This document shows, piece by piece, positions 54,830 through 63,290 of a DNA stretch of 64,000 nt. The stretch covers positions 1,233,001 through 1,297,000 of the forward strand of contig NZ_CP048422.1 in NCBI RefSeq assembly GCF_010450875.1, written 5' to 3'. The number at the start of each line of letters is the position of its first letter. The first letter of the stretch is position 1. The position numbers were made by a program, and so were the translations under genes. The DNA is from Sphingomonas insulae (lineage in GTDB: Bacteria > Pseudomonadota > Alphaproteobacteria > Sphingomonadales > Sphingomonadaceae). The notes under the pieces were generated by a model. That model was not told the DNA's origin and searched no databases. It was given only the letters and a program-made list of their open reading frames with translations.

Positions 54830-56362
54830 TCAGTCCGCGGCGACCGGTCCGTGACCGCCCTTGGGCCGGCGGGTGAACCAGGTGATGGCGATCAGCGCGA
54901 CGCACAGCCACGCGGAGACGCGGAACAGGTCGGTCGACGCGAGCAGATAGGCCTGGCCGACCATCTGGCGGGTGATCGCCCCGGCCGCCTGCGTCGAAGT
55001 CGCACCCATGCGTTGCAGCGTTTCCGTAGCCATCTGAAACGGCATGCCCTGGCCCACCGCTTCGGCCAGCCGGCTCTGGTGCAGTGCCTCGCGCCGGTCC
55101 CAGGCGGTGGTGATGATCGAGGCCGCGAAAGACCCGGCGACGATGCGCGCGAAGTTGGAGATGCCGGTGGCGGACGGCAGCCGTTCGGGCGGAATGCCGT
55201 CGAGCGAGATAGTGAGCATCGACAAGAAGAAGACGCTCATCGCGACGCCCTGTACCAGCAGCGGCAGCATGAAATCCCACGAACTGGCCGAGGTCGTGTA
55301 GCCCGAGCGCATGTAATAGGAGAGCGCGAAGGCGGCGAAGGCGATCGTGGCGAGGATGCGCGCGTCGATCTTTCCCGACATGCGCGCGGCGAATGGCGAC
55401 AGCACCACCGCGACCATGCCGCTGGGCGCGGCGATGATGCCTGCCCAGGTCGCGGTATAGCCGAGCTGGGTCTGGAGCCAGAGCGGCAGGATCAGGATGT
55501 TGGCGAAGAACACGGCGTAGCCCAGGCAGAAGGCGATGTTGCCGATCGCGAAATTGCGGCTTTTGAACAGGGTCAGATCGACCGCGGGATTGGCATCGGT
55601 CAGTTCCCAGATCACCCAGGCGATGAAGCCGATCGCGGCGACCGCCGCCAGCACGCAGATCGCCGTGTCCTGAAACCAGTCGGCGTTCTTGCCGAGGTCC
55701 AGCATGATCTGGAGCGCGCCGACCCACACCACGAGCAGCCCCAGCCCGACGGTGTCGATCGGCAGCTTGCGCGTCGGCGTCTCACGCGTCTTCAGCCCCC
55801 GCCAGCAGACCAATGTGACGAAGATGCCGAAGGGGACGTTGATGAGGAAGATCCAGCTCCAATGGTAATTGTCGCTGATGTAGCCGCCGAGGATGGGGCC
55901 CATCACCGGGCCGACCAGCGTGGTGATCGACCAGACGCCCAATGCGGTGCTGCGTTTGTCAGAGGGAAAGACGGAGATCAGCAACGCCTGGCTGCCCGGC
56001 ATCATCGGGCCGGAGACGGCACCCTGGATGATGCGGAAGACGATCAGCGATTGCAGGCTCCACGCGATGCCGCACAGGAACGAGGAGAGCGTGAACAGCG
56101 CCACGGCGGTGCAAAAGGTGCGCACCACGCCGAACCGGCCCATCAGCCAGCCGGTCAGCGGCACCGCGACGCCGTTCGCCACCGCGAAGGCGGTGATGAT
56201 CCACGTCGAATTGTCGCTCGACACGCCGAGATTGCCGGCGATCGTCGTCAGCGACACGTTGGCGATCGTGGTGTCCAGCACCATCATGAACGTGCCGAGC
56301 GCCAGCGCGAGGGCGATCAGCGCGAGGCGGCCGCCGGTAAGGGGGGCGGGTTGGGCGGGCAT
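54830..56362 (-). CDS. emrB: DHA2/EmrB-type MFS multidrug transporter, second copy
   Basis: A 510-residue, 14-helix pump of the EmrB/QacA group. MVLDTTIANVSLTTIAGNLGVSSDNSTWIITAFAVANGVAVPLTGWLMGRFGVVRTF shows motifs D and A, while GPVMGPILGGYISDNYHWSWIFLINVPFGIFV shows motif C (antiporter). It is the last gene of the second tripartite operon, 133 bases after the fusion-protein gene, and is better conserved in the DHA2 motifs than the first copy. Confidence 0.92.
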   Translation of the reverse strand: MPAQPAPLTGGRLALIALALALGTFMMVLDTTIANVSLTTIAGNLGVSSDNSTWIITAFAVANGVAVPLTGWLMGRFGVVRTFCTAVALFTLSSFLCGIAWSLQSLIVFRIIQGAVSGPMMPGSQALLISVFPSDKRSTALGVWSITTLVGPVMGPILGGYISDNYHWSWIFLINVPFGIFVTLVCWRGLKTRETPTRKLPIDTVGLGLLVVWVGALQIMLDLGKNADWFQDTAICVLAAVAAIGFIAWVIWELTDANPAVDLTLFKSRNFAIGNIAFCLGYAVFFANILILPLWLQTQLGYTATWAGIIAAPSGMVAVVLSPFAARMSGKIDARILATIAFAAFALSYYMRSGYTTSASSWDFMLPLLVQGVAMSVFFLSMLTISLDGIPPERLPSATGISNFARIVAGSFAASIITTAWDRREALHQSRLAEAVGQGMPFQMATETLQRMGATSTQAAGAITRQMVGQAYLLASTDLFRVSAWLCVALIAITWFTRRPKGGHGPVAAD

Positions 56363-56495
56363 CAGCAACGACCCTCGTTTGTCGCATCGTCCTCACCCCG
56401 AACACATGGCGGCGCCGTGCGGAGTGCCTTCCCGTCCCGGACGGGTGCGGAAGAGGCGCCACAGGTGGTGGAGGGTGAGGACAAGCGCGACGTCA

Positions 56496-57716
56496 TCAGC
56501 GGTTGGCGGCGATGATCTGGCGGATGCGGGCTTCGACCGCGGGGTCGCTGCCGTCGGTGGGCTTGCGGCCATAGGCCTGCGATGCCGCGCGACCGAGGCG
56601 CGTGCCGTTGAGATCCGCGGTATCGACGGTGGCATTGACCGACAGGCCGACGCGCAGCGGATTGCGGTTCAATTCGCGCGGGTCGAGGGCGATCCGCACC
56701 GGCACGCGCTGAACGATCTTGATCCAGTTGCCGCTGGCGTTCTGCGGCGGCAGCAGGGCGAAGGCGTTGCCCGAGCCGGCACCGACGCCGATGACGCGAC
56801 CGTGGAACACCAGGTCGCCGCCGTACATGTCGGCGGTGATCGTCGCCGGCTGACCGATGCGCAGGTCCTTGAGCTGCGTTTCGCGGAAGTTCGCATCGAC
56901 CCACACCTTGTCGAGCGGCACGACGGCCATAAGCGGGGTGCCGGGTGCGACCTGCTGGCCGATCTGTACCGTGCGCTGCGCGACGACGCCGTCGATCGGT
57001 GCGACGATGTGCATATGACTGCGGGTGATCGCCGCGCGGCGATAGGCGGCGGCGGCGGCCAGCACGGCGGGATTGGTGCTGGTGTCGGTTCCCTGCACCG
57101 CCGAGCGCGACTGGGCCTGCTGGCTGGTCGCGAGGTTCAGGTTGGCGCGCGCGACCTTCACCGCGTCGGCGGCATGCGCGAGTTCCTCGCCGGAGATCGC
57201 GCCTTGTGCCGCAGCGCCCTGACGACGGGCATAGTCGGCCATGGCGGCGGAGAGCTGCGCGCGCGCCTGGACGACGGCAGCGCCGCTTTCCGACACCTTG
57301 CTGATGTCGGCGCGGGTGGCGCGGACGGCGCGGGCGAGTTCCGCTTCCGCCGACGCGAGCGCGACGTCGGCGGTCGCCGGATCGAGGTCGAGCAGCGGCG
57401 CGCCGGCCTTCACCGTCTGGGTATTGTCGGCATGGATGGCGGTGATCTGACCCGGATCGCGCGCGGTGATCGCGACGACGTCGCCGGCGACATAGGCATC
57501 GTCGGTTTCCTGTTCCGGCTTGGCCAGCAGGAAGTGGAATACCGCCCAGACGATCGCCGCGATGGCGATGACGACGCCCAGGATCAGAAACGCGCGGCGG
57601 CGGGTGCGCGGTTTGCCGCCCTCGCGGGCAGGCTGGGGCTGGGGCTGGGGCTGGGATTGGGAGTCAGCGTCATCCCTGGGCTGGTCGGGCGACGCGGAAG
57701 GATGCGTATCGGTCAT
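56496..57716 (-). CDS. emrA: EmrA/HlyD-type membrane fusion protein, second copy
   Basis: A 406-residue periplasmic adaptor. After a Gln/Pro repeat (SQPQPQPQP) lies one membrane helix (AFLILGVVIAIAAIVWAVFHFLL). The barrel-sandwich entry follows: QETDDAYVAGDVVAITARDPGQITAIHADNTQTVKAGAPLLDLDPA. A coiled-coil hairpin leads to the second lipoyl half with HIVAPIDGVVAQRTVQIGQQVAPGTPLMAVVPLDKVWVDANFRETQL. The ATG overlaps the outer-membrane gene stop by four bases. Confidence 0.93.
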   Translation of the reverse strand: MTDTHPSASPDQPRDDADSQSQPQPQPQPAREGGKPRTRRRAFLILGVVIAIAAIVWAVFHFLLAKPEQETDDAYVAGDVVAITARDPGQITAIHADNTQTVKAGAPLLDLDPATADVALASAEAELARAVRATRADISKVSESGAAVVQARAQLSAAMADYARRQGAAAQGAISGEELAHAADAVKVARANLNLATSQQAQSRSAVQGTDTSTNPAVLAAAAAYRRAAITRSHMHIVAPIDGVVAQRTVQIGQQVAPGTPLMAVVPLDKVWVDANFRETQLKDLRIGQPATITADMYGGDLVFHGRVIGVGAGSGNAFALLPPQNASGNWIKIVQRVPVRIALDPRELNRNPLRVGLSVNATVDTADLNGTRLGRAASQAYGRKPTDGSDPAVEARIRQIIAANR

Positions 57717-59128
57717 CGGCGGGGTTCCTGCGGAATGAAGCCGCCGCCGAGCGCCAGCACCAGCGCGACGCGCTGGCGGGCCGCTTCGGCAGCGAGATTG
57801 GCCTGGGTGAGTTCGGCGTCGAGTAGCCGGACGTCGTTGTCGACGAGATCGAGCTTGCTATCGAGGCCGCTCGAGACGCGGATCGCGTTGAGGCGGTTGG
57901 TTTCGCCGAAGCCGCGCACGACCTCTGCGGTGCGTGCACGTTGCTGGGCAAGGTTGCCGACCAGCGCGATCGCATCCGCCGCTTCGCGTATCGCGCCGAC
58001 GACGCGCCCGTTGTAATCCGCGGTAGCGAGGTCGAGCGCGGCCGTGGCGCCGGCAAGGTCCGCCTTGAGCCGGCCGTTGTCGAACAGCGGCAGGTGGATC
58101 GCCGGGCCGGCACCGACCGTGCCGGCATCGAGGCTGAGGAGGTTGCCGAGGCCGACGGCCTGAAAGCCCGCGAGGGCGGCGAGATTGACGTTGGGATAGA
58201 AAGCGCGCCTTGCCACCTGACGCCCGGCCGCGGCGGCATCGATGCGGGCGAGGCCGGCGGCGATGTCCGGACGGCGGGCGAGCAGGTCGGCGGGCACCTG
58301 CGCCGGCACCGGCAGGGCGGCATCGAACGCCAGCGTCGCCGGGCGGATCGCCGCCGCATAATCCGGTCCACGACCCGCCAGCGCGGCGAGGGCATTGGTG
58401 GCGAGTGCGCGGCTGCCGTCCGCCCGGACCAACGCCGTGCGCGCCTGCGACAGCAAGGTCTGCGCCGCCACGGCCTGCAGATTGCTGGCCAGGCGGTTGC
58501 GGATGCGGATGTTCACCAGTCGCAGCGAATCCTCGCGCGTGGCGATGGTTCGGCGGGCGATCGTCGCTTCCGCCTCGGCGCGGGCGAGATCGATATAGGT
58601 CTGCACCACCGAGCCGGCGATGGCGAGGCGGGCGGCAGCGAGGTCGAGCGCCGCGGCCCTGGTCGAGGCGCGTGCCCCCTCGATCGCGGCCTTTTGCCGA
58701 CCGAACAGGTCGAGGTTCCAGTTGAGGTTCGCCTGCGCCTGGCCGACGAAGCGGACGGTGCCGGCATAAGGCGGCGGGATGGTGTAGCGGCCGGACAGGC
58801 GGGCGACCTGCGCCGATCCGTCGATGGTCACGTCGGGCCCGTCGTCGGCGCGGCGACTGGACAGCACCGCCTGCGCCTGCGCCACGCGGGCGAGTGCCGC
58901 GTCGAGCGTGGGATTGCCGGCCGTGGAATCGGCGACCAGCCGGTCCAGCTGTGGATCGCCGAACCCGGTCCACCAGGTGTCGGCGATGGCCGGCGCGGCG
59001 GGGCCGGTCAGGCCGAGCGTCGCGGGCGGAATCGCGGTGACCGCAGGGGGATCGTGCGGGACGGAACAGGCGGCGAGGATGGTCGACGCAAGCAGCGGGA
59101 CCAGCAGAAGGGGTTTGGCGAGGGTCAC
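57713..59128 (-). CDS. Outer-membrane efflux lipoprotein (NodT/OprM type), second copy
   Basis: A 471-residue TolC-like channel. It starts at a GTG overlapping the marR stop (GTGA), with a signal peptide ending in ILAAC (lipobox Cys 21). Features are DTWWTGFGDPQLDRLVADSTAGNPTLDAALARVAQAQAVLSSRRADDGP and two hairpin repeats, including LRLVNIRIRNRLASNLQAVAAQTLLSQARTALVRAD. The open frame upstream in this register runs through most of marR only because that gene is frameshifted; it is not a fusion protein. Confidence 0.9.
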   Translation of the reverse strand: MTLAKPLLLVPLLASTILAACSVPHDPPAVTAIPPATLGLTGPAAPAIADTWWTGFGDPQLDRLVADSTAGNPTLDAALARVAQAQAVLSSRRADDGPDVTIDGSAQVARLSGRYTIPPPYAGTVRFVGQAQANLNWNLDLFGRQKAAIEGARASTRAAALDLAAARLAIAGSVVQTYIDLARAEAEATIARRTIATREDSLRLVNIRIRNRLASNLQAVAAQTLLSQARTALVRADGSRALATNALAALAGRGPDYAAAIRPATLAFDAALPVPAQVPADLLARRPDIAAGLARIDAAAAGRQVARRAFYPNVNLAALAGFQAVGLGNLLSLDAGTVGAGPAIHLPLFDNGRLKADLAGATAALDLATADYNGRVVGAIREAADAIALVGNLAQQRARTAEVVRGFGETNRLNAIRVSSGLDSKLDLVDNDVRLLDAELTQANLAAEAARQRVALVLALGGGFIPQEPRR

Positions 59129-59593
59129 GCGGGGGCGCTTTCGTCGAAGGTCTGTTGCATGGTGTCGCGAAGTTGGCCGAGGAGGCGGATCAGGTCGTTG
59201 ACGTCTTGTGCGTTCCACCCGTCCAGCCAGTCGTTCCATACGTCGATGACGGCGTCGCGGACCTTGATGGCAATGGCGCCGCCCGATGACGTCAGGGTGA
59301 CACGAACCAACCGGCGGTCGCCGTCCGCGCGCGCGCGTCACCCAGCCACGTTCCTCCAGCGTGTCGACCAGCCGCGTCGTCGCGCCCTTGTCATGGCCAA
59401 GGTCGCGCGCAATCTCCGCACAGGTCGACGCGCGGTCGAAATGCAGGGCGACGAGCGCGCTCCACTGGGTCTTGCTGATATCGTGCGCCGCGAAAACCGG
59501 TTCGAGCGCGGCCGTGCCGAGCTGTTCCGAACGGCGGATCAGATAGCCGATCGACATGTCGGGATGGAAGTTCGAATCGGAGTAGAACGGCAT
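59125..59593 (-). pseudogene. MarR-family repressor, frameshifted in a GC tract
   Basis: Residues from MPFYSDSNFHPDMSIGYLIRRSEQLG through the winged helix CAEIARDLGHDKGATTRLVDTLEERGWVTRAR are read in one frame. The rest, DGDRRLVRVTLTSSGGAIAIKVRDAVIDVWNDWLDGWNAQDVNDLIRLLGQLRDTM, is in another. The break is in an alternating (GC)5G run at about 59327-59337; restoring one GC dinucleotide gives the expected WVTRARADGDRRLVRV. Both halves are otherwise intact and end exactly at the start of the efflux operon. The protein would normally repress that operon. The frameshift may be real, slippage-prone, or a sequencing error. Confidence 0.75.
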
Positions 59594-59597
59594 ATGG

Positions 59598-59609
59598 TTG
59601 CCATGGCAA
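59598..59609. promoter_or_regulatory. Palindrome overlapping the marR leader, candidate MarR operator
   Basis: TTGCCATGGCAA is a perfect 12-bp palindrome 5-16 bases before the marR ATG. A second TTGC...GCAA site, TTGCGCAA, lies about 25 bases further upstream (59634-59641). Paired TTGC/GCAA half-sites at the gene's own promoter fit MarR-type autorepression. The sites also lie within 130 bases of the divergent aminotransferase gene. Confidence 0.5.
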
Positions 59610-59721
59610 TGGTTGCGAAGGCAGTCAATAGTGTTGCGCAATGTTGCTGGCGTGGCGGCGCTAACCGGTTCTTAGGGGCGCGGCGTTAGGCGGGCGGATC
59701 GACTTGCAGGACGCTTGGCCC

Positions 59722-62241
59722 ATGGAATTTCCGCTGATCGCGCCCAATCCTCCGCGACTGAGCGCCTTGACCGCGGGGCTGCACCGGATCGAGGCTTCGG
59801 GCGTGTTCAGCAACAACGGGCCGGAGGTGCAGGCGTTCGAGGCCGAGATCACCGATCGCCTGTTCGGCGGCACGGGTGCCAGCCTGGCGGTGTCGAATGC
59901 GACGCTGGGCCTGATGGTGGCGATCCGCCAGGCGGCGGGACTGTATCCGAAGCCGGGCACGCTGGCATTGATGCCGGCGCTGACCTTCGCCGCGACGGCG
60001 CAGGCCGCGATCTGGGCTGGCCTCACCCCCCTGATCTGCGACGTCGATGCCGAGACCTGGGCAGCCGACCCCCGGCAGGAAGAAGCGCTGCTTGCACGCC
60101 ATGCCGGACGCATCGGGGTGATCGTTCCTTATGCGACGTTCGGCACGGCGATCGATCTCGATCGCTATGCATGGTTGGCCAAGCATTATCAGGTCGGCGT
60201 GGTCGTCGATGCGGCGGCGTCGCTGGGGACGCTCGATGACGACGGACGCGGGTTCGGCACCGGTGCGCCCTTCGCGATCGTCTATTCGATGCATGCGACC
60301 AAGACGTTTTCGGTCGCGGAAGGCGGGCTGATCCACAGCGTCGACCACGGATTGATCCACCAGTTGCGCAGCATGATCAACTTCGGGTTCGAAGCGGGGC
60401 GCAGCGCGACGCTGCCCGGCATCAACGCCAAGCTGCCCGAAGTGATCGCGCTGATGGCCCGCGCCAAGCTCGCCGACATCGATGCGGTCTGCGATCATCG
60501 CGCGGCGATCGACGCGGCCTATCGCGACGCACTGCCCGCCTTTGCGGTGCAGCGGCGGCACGGACGGCGGCAGGCGACGCAGTTCATGCCGGTGTTGCTG
60601 CCCGAGGGACTGGCACCGCATCGGGCGGCGATCGCGGCAGCGCTGACCGAAGACGGCGTGGGCGTCGGGCAGTATTTCAGTCCGCACATCGGCCAACAGC
60701 CGCTGTTCCAGGCCATCGCCGAGGTGGAACCGACACCGGTCGCCGACGCGATCGGCGCACGGATGTTGAGCCTGCCCATCACCGATGCGATGACGCCGGC
60801 CGATGTGCCGGTCATCGCGGAGCGGCTGGTGCGGGCGATCGAACGGGTGGCGGACAGCGCCATGCTGCGGGTAGGAGCGGCGAGGATGATCGCGACGCGC
60901 GAGATGATGGGGACGGTGGTGATCGGCGGCGGACCCGCCGGTACCGCGATGCTGACCTCGGCCAGTAAGCAGAACAAGCTGGTTCCTCTGGTCGAAGCCG
61001 GCCTTGCGATCGTCGAACGGCGGCCGCGGATGGGCGCTGGCGAGCTTGGTCATTATGCCATCCGGTCGGATACCACGGCGGAGACGTTCCTGTCGGCGGT
61101 TAGGAACAATCCGCATCCCGAGCTGGCGGCGCTGGAGCATCACCCGGCCGGGCAATTGATGCAGCGCTACGTCGCCGAACTGGGAGCGCCGCTGACCGAC
61201 ACGGCGCCGCTGCTGTCGGTGACGGCGGACCGGCTGGCGGACATCGTGGCGGCGCATGGCGGCGAGGTGCTGACCGGGCATGACGCGATCGGCGCCCGCC
61301 GCACGGCCGACGGCGGCTGGATGACGACGGTGAGGGATGCTGCCGGCGCGACGCGGACGTTGGTGTCGCGCAACGTGGTGGTTGCCACCGGCGGCTACCA
61401 GACCGACGAACAGGTCGCGGCGAAGCGGGTGGCGGGGGTTCCGCTGGGCACGCTGGCCGGCAAGCGGCTGATGCGGTCCGACGCCTTGCTGCGGCTGGGC
61501 GGTGTCGAGCAGGTGCGCGAACGGCTGCACGGCCACGCATCGCCCAGGGTTGCCATCATCGGGGCGTCGACCAGCGCGATCGCGGCGGCGGTGCTGCTGC
61601 TGAAGAGCCAGCCCGGCTTCGCGTTCGGTGCGGGGGCGGTGACCATCCTGCATCGACAGCCGCTGAAGCCCTTCTACCCGACGATCGCGGCGGCGCATGC
61701 CGACGGCTTCCACGATTTCGACGAGAACGACATTTGTCCTGTCAGCGGCTTCGTGTTGCGCCTCGCCGGGTTGCGGCTGGAATCGCGCGAACTGGTGGTG
61801 CGGATGCTGTCGCTCGGCGGCCGGACGCCCGATCCACGCGTGGCGTTGCACCGGATCGCCGGCGACGGCGATGCGGCGGCGAGGCGCATCGTCGCCGGCG
61901 CCGATCTGGTGGTGGGCGCGCTCGGCTATCGACCGCGGGCGATGCCGTTGTTCGATGTCGACGGCGCGCCGCTGGCGCTGGCGCATCACGAAGGACGGCC
62001 GATGGTGGACCGGCATTGCCGCATCCTCGATGCCGCCGACCGGCCGGTACCGGGCGCATATGGCATCGGCCTGTCCGCGGGATTCGTGCCGTGGGGACGG
62101 ATGGGCGGCGAGGCGAGCTTTCGCGGACAGGCCAACGGGCTGTGGCTGTGGCAGAACGACGTCGGCCAGATGATCGTCGACCAGTTGCTAGGGCTCGGAC
62201 AGCCCGATGCGATGCCGGCGGACGTCCGGGCGGCGGCGTGA
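59722..62241 (+). CDS. Fused DegT-type aminotransferase and FAD-dependent oxidoreductase
   Basis: An 839-residue two-domain protein. Residues 1-375 are a DegT/DnrJ/EryC1/StrS PLP enzyme: PLIAPNPPRLSALTAGLHRIEASGVFSNNGPEV, VSNATLGLMVAI, IVPYATFG, VVVDAAASLGT, and the PLP Lys194 in SMHATKTFSVAEGG. A short linker leads at residue 395 to an FAD domain, VVIGGGPAGTAM, with a second nucleotide-binding motif VAIIGASTSAIAAAVLLL and the closing GYRPRAMPLFD and GAYGIGLSAGF. DegT enzymes transaminate nucleotide-linked keto-sugars; the FAD half resembles N-hydroxylating or amino-acid-type monooxygenases. The frame is continuous. The stop overlaps a glycosyltransferase gene, so the product probably supplies or modifies its sugar. 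Confidence 0.82.
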   Translation: MEFPLIAPNPPRLSALTAGLHRIEASGVFSNNGPEVQAFEAEITDRLFGGTGASLAVSNATLGLMVAIRQAAGLYPKPGTLALMPALTFAATAQAAIWAGLTPLICDVDAETWAADPRQEEALLARHAGRIGVIVPYATFGTAIDLDRYAWLAKHYQVGVVVDAAASLGTLDDDGRGFGTGAPFAIVYSMHATKTFSVAEGGLIHSVDHGLIHQLRSMINFGFEAGRSATLPGINAKLPEVIALMARAKLADIDAVCDHRAAIDAAYRDALPAFAVQRRHGRRQATQFMPVLLPEGLAPHRAAIAAALTEDGVGVGQYFSPHIGQQPLFQAIAEVEPTPVADAIGARMLSLPITDAMTPADVPVIAERLVRAIERVADSAMLRVGAARMIATREMMGTVVIGGGPAGTAMLTSASKQNKLVPLVEAGLAIVERRPRMGAGELGHYAIRSDTTAETFLSAVRNNPHPELAALEHHPAGQLMQRYVAELGAPLTDTAPLLSVTADRLADIVAAHGGEVLTGHDAIGARRTADGGWMTTVRDAAGATRTLVSRNVVVATGGYQTDEQVAAKRVAGVPLGTLAGKRLMRSDALLRLGGVEQVRERLHGHASPRVAIIGASTSAIAAAVLLLKSQPGFAFGAGAVTILHRQPLKPFYPTIAAAHADGFHDFDENDICPVSGFVLRLAGLRLESRELVVRMLSLGGRTPDPRVALHRIAGDGDAAARRIVAGADLVVGALGYRPRAMPLFDVDGAPLALAHHEGRPMVDRHCRILDAADRPVPGAYGIGLSAGFVPWGRMGGEASFRGQANGLWLWQNDVGQMIVDQLLGLGQPDAMPADVRAAA

Positions 62242-63290
62242 CCGATCCCGTCGTCTCCGTCGTCGTTCCCAGCTACAATGGCGTCGCCTTCATCGGCGAA
62301 ACGCTGGAGTCGCTCGGGCGGCAGACGTTGCGGGAGTGGGAGGCCATCGTGATCGACGATGGTTCGACGGACGATACGCGCGCGCTCGTCCGCGCCTGGC
62401 CCGATCCGCGCGTTCGCCTGATCGAGCGGGCCGAGAACGGCGGCCCGGTGCTCGCACGCAATGCGGGGATCGCCGCGGTGCGCGGGCGCTACGTCGCTGG
62501 CCTGGATCAGGACGACCTGTGCCTGCCCGATCGACTGGCGCGGCAGGTCGCCTATCTGGAGGGGCATCGCGATGTCGTGCTGGTCGGATCGCAGGCCCGG
62601 CAATTGCGCGACGGACGGGTGTCGTCGATGCAATATGCGCCGCTCACCACCCCGGACTTGATCGCATGGTTGACCTGGATCGAGAATCCGATCGTCTGGT
62701 CGACGGTGATGATGCGTACCGACGCTGCGCGCTCGCTGGATCCGTTCAGCCGGCCCGAGCTGATCTATGCGGAGGATTTCGACCTCTACCACCGCATCGC
62801 CCGGCTTGGCAGACTTGCACGACTGGACGAACCGCTGTTGCTGTATCGTCAGCACGCTGGCGGCGTGTCGAAGCGCTTTATCGCGACCATGCAGGCCAGC
62901 GCGACGCGGGTGCTGGCGGAAGCGCATGCCGCGGTGCTCGGCGAGGCGGAGGCGGCTGCGATCGCGCCGTTGCTGGTGCGGCACAATATGGGGGGCGAGC
63001 CGGTACCCGACCGTCTGACGCTGATACGCCTCGGCAACGGCATCGCGACATTGCAGGCGGCGTTTCTGGAGCACGTCCGGCCCGATGCGGAGGGACGCAA
63101 GCTGATCCGCTGGGAGACGGCGCGGCGCTGGGCGCGGATCGGTCGTGCCGGCCTGCGATCGGGTCAGGTCGGCTTGCGTGACATCCTGGCAGCCCGGCCG
63201 CCACACCTGGGCCTGGGCTATGCCGGGCTGGAGACGTTGCTGTGGAGCGGTGCGATCGGGGCGGTCCGCCGGATGCGGCGACCCGCCTGA
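62238..63290 (+). CDS. Family 2 glycosyltransferase
   Basis: A 350-residue GT-A enzyme starting at a GTG that overlaps the upstream stop (GTGA). VSVVVPSYNGVAFIGETLESLGRQTLREWEAIVIDDGSTDDT opens the nucleotide-binding half. The metal-binding D-Q-D-D segment is YVAGLDQDDLCLPDRLARQ. A probable catalytic Asp is in YAEDFDLYHRIARLG. A basic, helical C-terminal part of about 120 residues (RKLIRWETARRWARIGRAGL) may bind the membrane or acceptor. Coupling to the aminotransferase-FAD gene links it to an unusual sugar. Confidence 0.88.
   Translation: MTDPVVSVVVPSYNGVAFIGETLESLGRQTLREWEAIVIDDGSTDDTRALVRAWPDPRVRLIERAENGGPVLARNAGIAAVRGRYVAGLDQDDLCLPDRLARQVAYLEGHRDVVLVGSQARQLRDGRVSSMQYAPLTTPDLIAWLTWIENPIVWSTVMMRTDAARSLDPFSRPELIYAEDFDLYHRIARLGRLARLDEPLLLYRQHAGGVSKRFIATMQASATRVLAEAHAAVLGEAEAAAIAPLLVRHNMGGEPVPDRLTLIRLGNGIATLQAAFLEHVRPDAEGRKLIRWETARRWARIGRAGLRSGQVGLRDILAARPPHLGLGYAGLETLLWSGAIGAVRRMRRPA

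Follow-up and report, generated by a model that had tools for sequence, protein, structure and literature searches.

The enzymes closest to the gene described here fall into several groups. DesI and perosamine synthase are C4 aminotransferases of 6-deoxy sugars. The ascarylose and colitose pathways likewise pair a protein of the DegT fold with a flavoprotein, and in the pyridoxal phosphate (PLP) 3-dehydrases E1 and ColD a histidine replaces the PLP lysine. N-oxygenation of a nucleotide amino sugar is carried out by nitrososynthases of the ORF36/KijD3 type, which have an acyl-CoA-dehydrogenase fold, and most substrates known for N-hydroxylases are amino acids or diamines rather than nucleotide sugars. 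One published abstract includes amino sugars among the substrates accepted by flavin N-hydroxylating enzymes (PMC7347517). The subject of this analysis is a 64,000-nucleotide stretch of the Sphingomonas insulae genome (assembly GCF_010450875.1, contig NZ_CP048422.1, positions 1,233,001 to 1,297,000 of the forward strand), referred to below as the window, in which a single gene joins a DegT-type aminotransferase to a flavin adenine dinucleotide (FAD) flavoprotein and overlaps a family 2 glycosyltransferase (GT2) gene. This module is real and widespread; among the papers that could be searched, no title or abstract found describes the DegT-FAD fusion, which is a weak negative, as most subscription papers lie outside that set.

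The fused frame runs from an ATG at 59722 to 62241 on the plus strand and encodes 839 amino acids, with a complete DegT half followed by a complete two-Rossmann half for FAD and reduced nicotinamide adenine dinucleotide phosphate (NADPH). The DegT/DnrJ/EryC1/StrS aminotransferase half (59722..60876, +, about residues 1-385) is matched in the Pfam scan by PF01041 at residues 20-369 (206.5 bits, cut-off 19.8), and the flavoprotein half (60907..62238, +, about residues 396-839) by Pyr_redox_2, PF07992, at residues 398-647 (33.5 bits, cut-off 26.1). The original prediction, made from the letters of the window, had read a PLP fold and an FAD enzyme in one frame, and these domains bear it out. Its estimate of about 20 residues for the junction is a fair one, given that in the full-length model the DegT C-terminal helix spans 361-391, a stretch with a predicted local distance difference test (pLDDT) score below 50 spans 385-392 and the first FAD strand stands at 396; the linker itself can be placed at 60877..60906 (+, about residues 386-395). 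The predicted template modelling score (pTM) of the full-length model is 0.56, and therefore the relative placement of the halves was not used and channelling is not claimed. The alternative opener of the frame is a TTG at 59704, and the called starts in three mapped regions (L030, L032 and L040) coincide with the ATG position. The antisense strand of this GC-rich stretch has an open frame of 776 amino acids, as often happens at high GC, which makes frame length poor evidence; the coding case rests on conservation.

The genus sample consists of 201 genomes, including that of the window. Some match to the fusion at E<=1e-3 was detected in 149 of these, and 120 contain it at full length, including six flagged with one TGA that is probably at the 3' end, since the match reaches residue 832 or beyond in each. 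At the same threshold 776 of 7993 scored database proteins match the fusion and, among the matches listed (120 database proteins), all span at least 89% of the 839-residue chain.

The TGA stop of the fusion (62239..62241, +) lies within a GTGA overlap of 4 bp with the GTG start of the GT2 gene (62238..63290, +), whose 350-residue product matches PF00535 at 118.8 bits (cut-off 23.3). A GT2 homologue at E<=1e-60 is present in 133/201 genomes, and is the next gene downstream, on the same strand, in 118 of the 120 fused loci, a count from which partial copies in eight genomes (G068, G171, G162, G082, G007, G179, G120 and G018) and DegT-only matches (<=33% identity, among the matches listed) had been left out. 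The gaps listed between the genes are all 2 modulo 3, as for a 4-bp overlap, and the two genes stand in the same relative frame in all 118. The two remaining loci are in G134, with no GT2 match, and G118, in which part of a GT2 gene lies at the end of a different contig. The two-domain order and GT2 neighbour that the original prediction had marked for a database search are thus found together, and its refuting case, in which homologues would always be two separate genes and the junction a sequencing deletion, fails against 120 full-length fusions. Apart from the fusion and GT2, no protein cluster occurs in more than 7 of 30 mapped regions (L021-L050), so that these genes form a stable two-gene unit.

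Beyond the genus, the fusion was detected at E<=1e-60 in 10/249 family genomes and 4/289 class genomes (the window's own genome in each), and the flavin alignment at 1e-20 matches 12/398 phylum genomes; several of these wider matches are two separate genes, and one is a single frame in reverse order. When genome contigs were searched with the flavin alignment, 235 loci were confirmed, and 80 of them were kept and counted by gene arrangement. DegT is fused to or beside the flavin gene in 66 of the 80. There are 35 fused DegT-FAD loci, 34 of them with GT2 next, and two fused FAD-DegT loci, from Terriglobus roseus (L120, with another GT2 next) and a Rhodospirillales metagenome-assembled genome (MAG; L089). 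Adjacent genes in the order DegT-FAD, with the same DegT type, account for 13 loci, one being a Sphingomonas locus with a split frame (L129); a further 10 adjacent loci have an N-terminally extended DegT (Reyranella, Enhydrobacter, Ferrovibrio and MAGs), and six are in the order FAD-DegT. In the extended group (L050, L063-L072), a CBS domain was found by Pfam in two of the five scanned (L071 and L072). Pseudomonadota and Acidobacteriota both have the DegT-flavin pair, and the flavin gene on its own, with no DegT, occurs in Actinomycetota as well; the module is limited neither to the window locus nor to the fused form. Typical sphingomonad fusion loci also turned up in assemblies named Arthrobacter sp. 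TPD3018 (L101) and Microvirga sp. SRT01 (L139), which are likely misnamed or contaminated.

In a tree of 60 rows, the sphingomonads, thinned to 13 fused rows, form one clade that includes the split L129. The reverse fusions L120 and L089 fall elsewhere, L120 on a long branch whose exact place is unsure; as both lie outside the sphingomonad clade and each needs a separate event, the tree holds three fusion events. The distance matrices of the DegT and FAD parts are correlated, with r 0.93 over 71 rows including the window; r is 0.89 for the 35 loci farthest from the window and 0.79 for the 21 among them that share the DegT type, and in each of the three sets 0/2000 permutations reached the observed value.

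The best solved relative of the DegT half is PDB 3ju7 (E 6.3e-54, 186.8 bits), which has no stated function, and the second is PDB 2po3 (E 2.2e-35), which we take to be DesI. The whole fold and the catalytic lysine are common to the window's half and the DesI-like aminotransferases, but the window's half falls far under the cut-off of the DesI equivalog TIGR04427 in NCBIfam (154.3 vs 650 bits) and is fused to a flavoprotein. Lys194, which the original prediction correctly placed in SMHATKTFS (codon 60301-60303, +), is a lysine in 78/78 fused rows (alignment A4) and 71/71 paired rows, with the window in both. Identity as a PLP 3-dehydrase (E1, ColD) was rejected on this lysine, present in every row examined. 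Among the separate partners, the DegT of L147 is closest to DesI (202 bits) and that of L050 to perosamine synthase (312 bits); because these two nearest enzymes act at C4, amination at C4 by the window's half is a reasonable guess and no firmer than that.

The flavin half contains the motifs GGGPAG (402-407), ATGG (555-558), GASTSA (614-619), D670-x-C672 and GY (735-736), and was modelled by AlphaFold2, a structural check proposed at the outset, with a pLDDT of 94.5 and a pTM of 0.91. The FAD motif GxGPxG is preserved in 72 of 79 flavin sequences, the other seven rows being gapped there, and the second NAD(P) Rossmann motif GxxxSA in 79/79. These motifs place the half among flavoproteins with two dinucleotide-binding domains, and the other refuting case of the original prediction, an FAD half that lacks FAD binding, fails against the intact GxGPxG. 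The DxC motif (D670, C672) is invariant in 79/79 sequences (alignment A3), even in those with as little as 25% identity to the window. The half belongs to no specific family in Pfam or NCBIfam, and a search of the single sequence against solved structures gave 0 matches at E<=10. The 79-row profile gave weak and fragmentary matches (best E 7e-6), to lipoamide dehydrogenase, ferredoxin-NADP and thioredoxin reductases, urocanate reductase, YpdA, 9nns (EtcB/MbtG) and DiatB chains.

Judged from the model, the nearest folds appear to be those of flavin monooxygenases (FMOs) and N-hydroxylases. Single-chain monooxygenases of the SmFMO type have the highest VIA-align Z (22.4 for 4a9w and 23.0 for 4usr), but the FMO signature is absent from the flavin family (0/79). 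The N-hydroxylases SidA, PvdA, KtzI and EtcB, and DiatB, have 14-20% identity to the half, which differs from them in the strict signature of N-hydroxylating monooxygenases (NMOs) and in the lack of a PF13434 match in the Pfam scan of the fusion. A looser form of the NMO motif occurs in 63/79, and could be met by reductases too. From the bacillithiol disulfide reductase YpdA and the thioredoxin reductases the half differs in its larger chain and in a CxxC redox pair, found in 4/79 flavin sequences and missing in 75/79; a dithiol reductase resembling thioredoxin reductase is disfavoured on that count. The ORF36/KijD3 nitrososynthases share the chemistry proposed below, but nothing of the acyl-CoA-dehydrogenase kind was found in the Pfam scan of the fusion.

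The genes around the DegT-flavin pairs frequently belong to surface glycan synthesis. In L147, the flavin gene, DegT, a flippase-like protein, GT2 and Wzc stand in a row, with L144 and L145 alike by gene layout; Wzc and a flippase family protein lie beside the pair in L146, Wzy and GT4 before it in L125, rmlC and rmlD upstream in Komagataeibacter (L105 and L142) and a bacterial sugar transferase after it in Roseomonas (L095). Nine Mycobacterium loci (L073-L081) have a flavin gene without a detected DegT; the neighbours in the Pfam-annotated L075 are two proteins of the C-methyltransferase type, a PIG-L deacetylase, an epimerase, a sugar transferase, Wzz and Wzy. Within the fetched DNA, the other eight loci contain homologues of most of these neighbours. 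An NTP_transferase/Glucosamine_iso fusion precedes the flavin gene in Pseudomonas luteola (L085, 5875-14438), with MFS, FhuF-like, ABC and FecCD genes of siderophore type downstream. Epimerase_2 is directly downstream in Belnapia (L090), and together with GT2 is nearby on the opposite strand in Actinoplanes (L097). An amino-sugar enzyme beside the flavin gene is usual, not universal. One Sphingomonas genome (G120, L021:8131-10928) has the flavin half and GT2, but in the position of the DegT half there is a small gene for a chorismate mutase of type II; a separate DegT match lies about 2 kb from its RmlB, and this single case fits a flavin step able to follow a separate aminotransferase.

Sugar dehydratases were scored at strict cut-offs (E<=1e-100 for RmlB and GMD, E<=1e-50 for PF02719). 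The window's own genome has RmlB and GMD, as do the genome of L050 (G509) and those of the L147 group (G778, G782, G856 and G1043); among 12 genomes tested, GMD was found in 9 and RmlB in 11. With 8 of the 201 genus genomes left out for partial or degraded copies, RmlB is present in 100/120 fusion genomes vs 49/73 without the fusion (Fisher p 0.013), and GMD in 52/120 vs 27/73 (p 0.45), a co-occurrence too weak to name a substrate.

Taken together, the two halves are likely to serve a single amino-sugar pathway that leads to a surface glycan. The PLP half, an aminotransferase at the family level, would use its lysine to turn a nucleotide-linked keto sugar into an amino sugar, probably at C4. 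The FAD/NADPH half would then act on this amino sugar, most likely by oxygenating the amine to the hydroxylamine, oxime or nitroso level, and the conserved coupling suggests that the GT2 from the overlapping gene may move the finished sugar to a glycan or lipid carrier. Two grounds favour N-oxygenation, namely that the recurrent partner, with three fusions on the tree, produces an amine and that the scaffold of the flavin half includes amine N-hydroxylases; as the identity of the flavin step, N-oxygenation stands somewhat below an even chance. Several findings weigh against it, or against the pathway as a whole. YpdA and the thioredoxin reductases score almost as close to the model, and neither the three FMO or Baeyer-Villiger monooxygenase patterns (FxGxxxH-type) nor the strict NMO motif, D(x)3(L/F)ATGY, occurs in any of the 79 flavin sequences. 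No DegT is nearby in 14 of the 80 flavin loci, some pairs stand outside glycan settings (Ku as the upstream neighbour looked at in L134, a desaturase in L091, and an acyltransferase family 3 gene downstream in L086 and L087), and no amino-sugar enzyme was seen among the genes examined in L082, L143 and L148. Finally, 17/120 fusion genomes lack RmlB and GMD, and 0/17 have PF02719; PF16363 matches in 17/17 (142-193 bits) look like ordinary epimerases or decarboxylases and were not counted as dehydratases. Of the original prediction, the fusion, its intact FAD/NADPH motifs, the GT2 coupling and the likely glycan decoration stand, while oxidation of the amine, in keeping with the nearest folds and at odds with the absent signatures, is compatible with the data but unproven.

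Another NADPH-dependent flavin step on the same sugar, such as carbon hydroxylation, a Baeyer-Villiger type insertion or reduction of a keto or imino intermediate, is possible, if somewhat doubtful. The fold is common to FMOs, N-hydroxylases and reductases, the invariant DxC motif has to our knowledge no counterpart in N-hydroxylases, and where DegT is missing the flavin gene lies near C-methyltransferase-type genes, Epimerase_2 or the NTP_transferase-Glucosamine_iso gene. That the flavin gene recurs beside an amine-making enzyme, and was fused to one more than once, instead favours the amine as target, and 75/79 sequences have no CxxC pair. An unlikely but serious rival to N-oxygenation is ketone supply, in which the flavin half would oxidise a nucleotide sugar or cyclitol at a hydroxyl and the DegT half would aminate the resulting ketone, making a self-contained alcohol-to-amine enzyme. 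Such an enzyme would suit the 17 genomes without dehydratases, the Sphingomonas two-gene cassette with its varying neighbours, fusion in both orders and the Mycobacterium partners, since C-methyltransferase-type sugar enzymes also need a keto sugar. Against it, RmlB and GMD matches accompany the perosamine-like partner (G509) and the L147 group, the conserved NADPH-side motifs suggest a flavin reduced by NADPH, and we know of no sugar-alcohol oxidase of the two-Rossmann NADPH type. Deoxygenation as in ascarylose and colitose synthesis (E1/E3 or ColD), with the DegT half eliminating a hydroxyl and the flavin half giving electrons, has a similar general pairing of DegT-fold protein and flavoprotein, but is very improbable and was rejected on the lysine found in 78/78 fusions and 71/71 paired rows where such dehydrases have histidine, and no [2Fe-2S] ferredoxin domain appeared in the Pfam scan. 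A joining of two unrelated genes by deletion or assembly error, which split versions (L047, L048, Acetobacter and others) and interrupted frames (G068, G171, G162; L129) could suggest, has a negligible chance and was rejected, as the fused frame is conserved in 120/201 genomes, 119 of them with a protein 52-87% identical to the window's, and two separate reverse fusions exist.

With N-oxygenation as the preferred reading, the flavin halves may tentatively be proposed as a new family of two-Rossmann flavin N-oxygenases for nucleotide amino sugars, on a scaffold unlike that of the acyl-CoA-dehydrogenase-type nitrososynthases and repeatedly fused to an aminotransferase; hydroxylamino, oxime, nitroso or nitro sugars would then be common on the surface glycans of sphingomonads and other bacteria. 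The surface of Sphingomonas with the fusion probably bears an unusual sugar that contains nitrogen. The widespread module combines two familiar enzyme folds, which on the tree were fused on three occasions. Should the flavin half oxidise the amine, N-oxidised sugars would be an everyday part of the surface glycans of a genus very common in the environment, and not a peculiarity of antibiotics. Whichever the reaction, the fusion is one expressible protein with which it is convenient to test where the sugar is modified relative to glycosyl transfer.

The GT2 family is also found without the fusion, with a bacterial sugar transferase, a UDP-sugar dehydrogenase and Epimerase_2 nearby in L151, a sugar transferase near L152, FkbH and an acyl carrier protein near L153 and an epimerase-type gene near L154. 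From 63321 in the window, GT2 is followed by a gene for a class I tRNA synthetase, identified by eye as ileS. Ahead of the fusion, a gene named by eye as a MarR-like regulator (59128-59593, -) is split over two frames relative to two relatives; its front part runs in frame into an outer-membrane protein, and it adjoins an MFS/HlyD/outer-membrane efflux set at 54830-59641, likewise named by eye.

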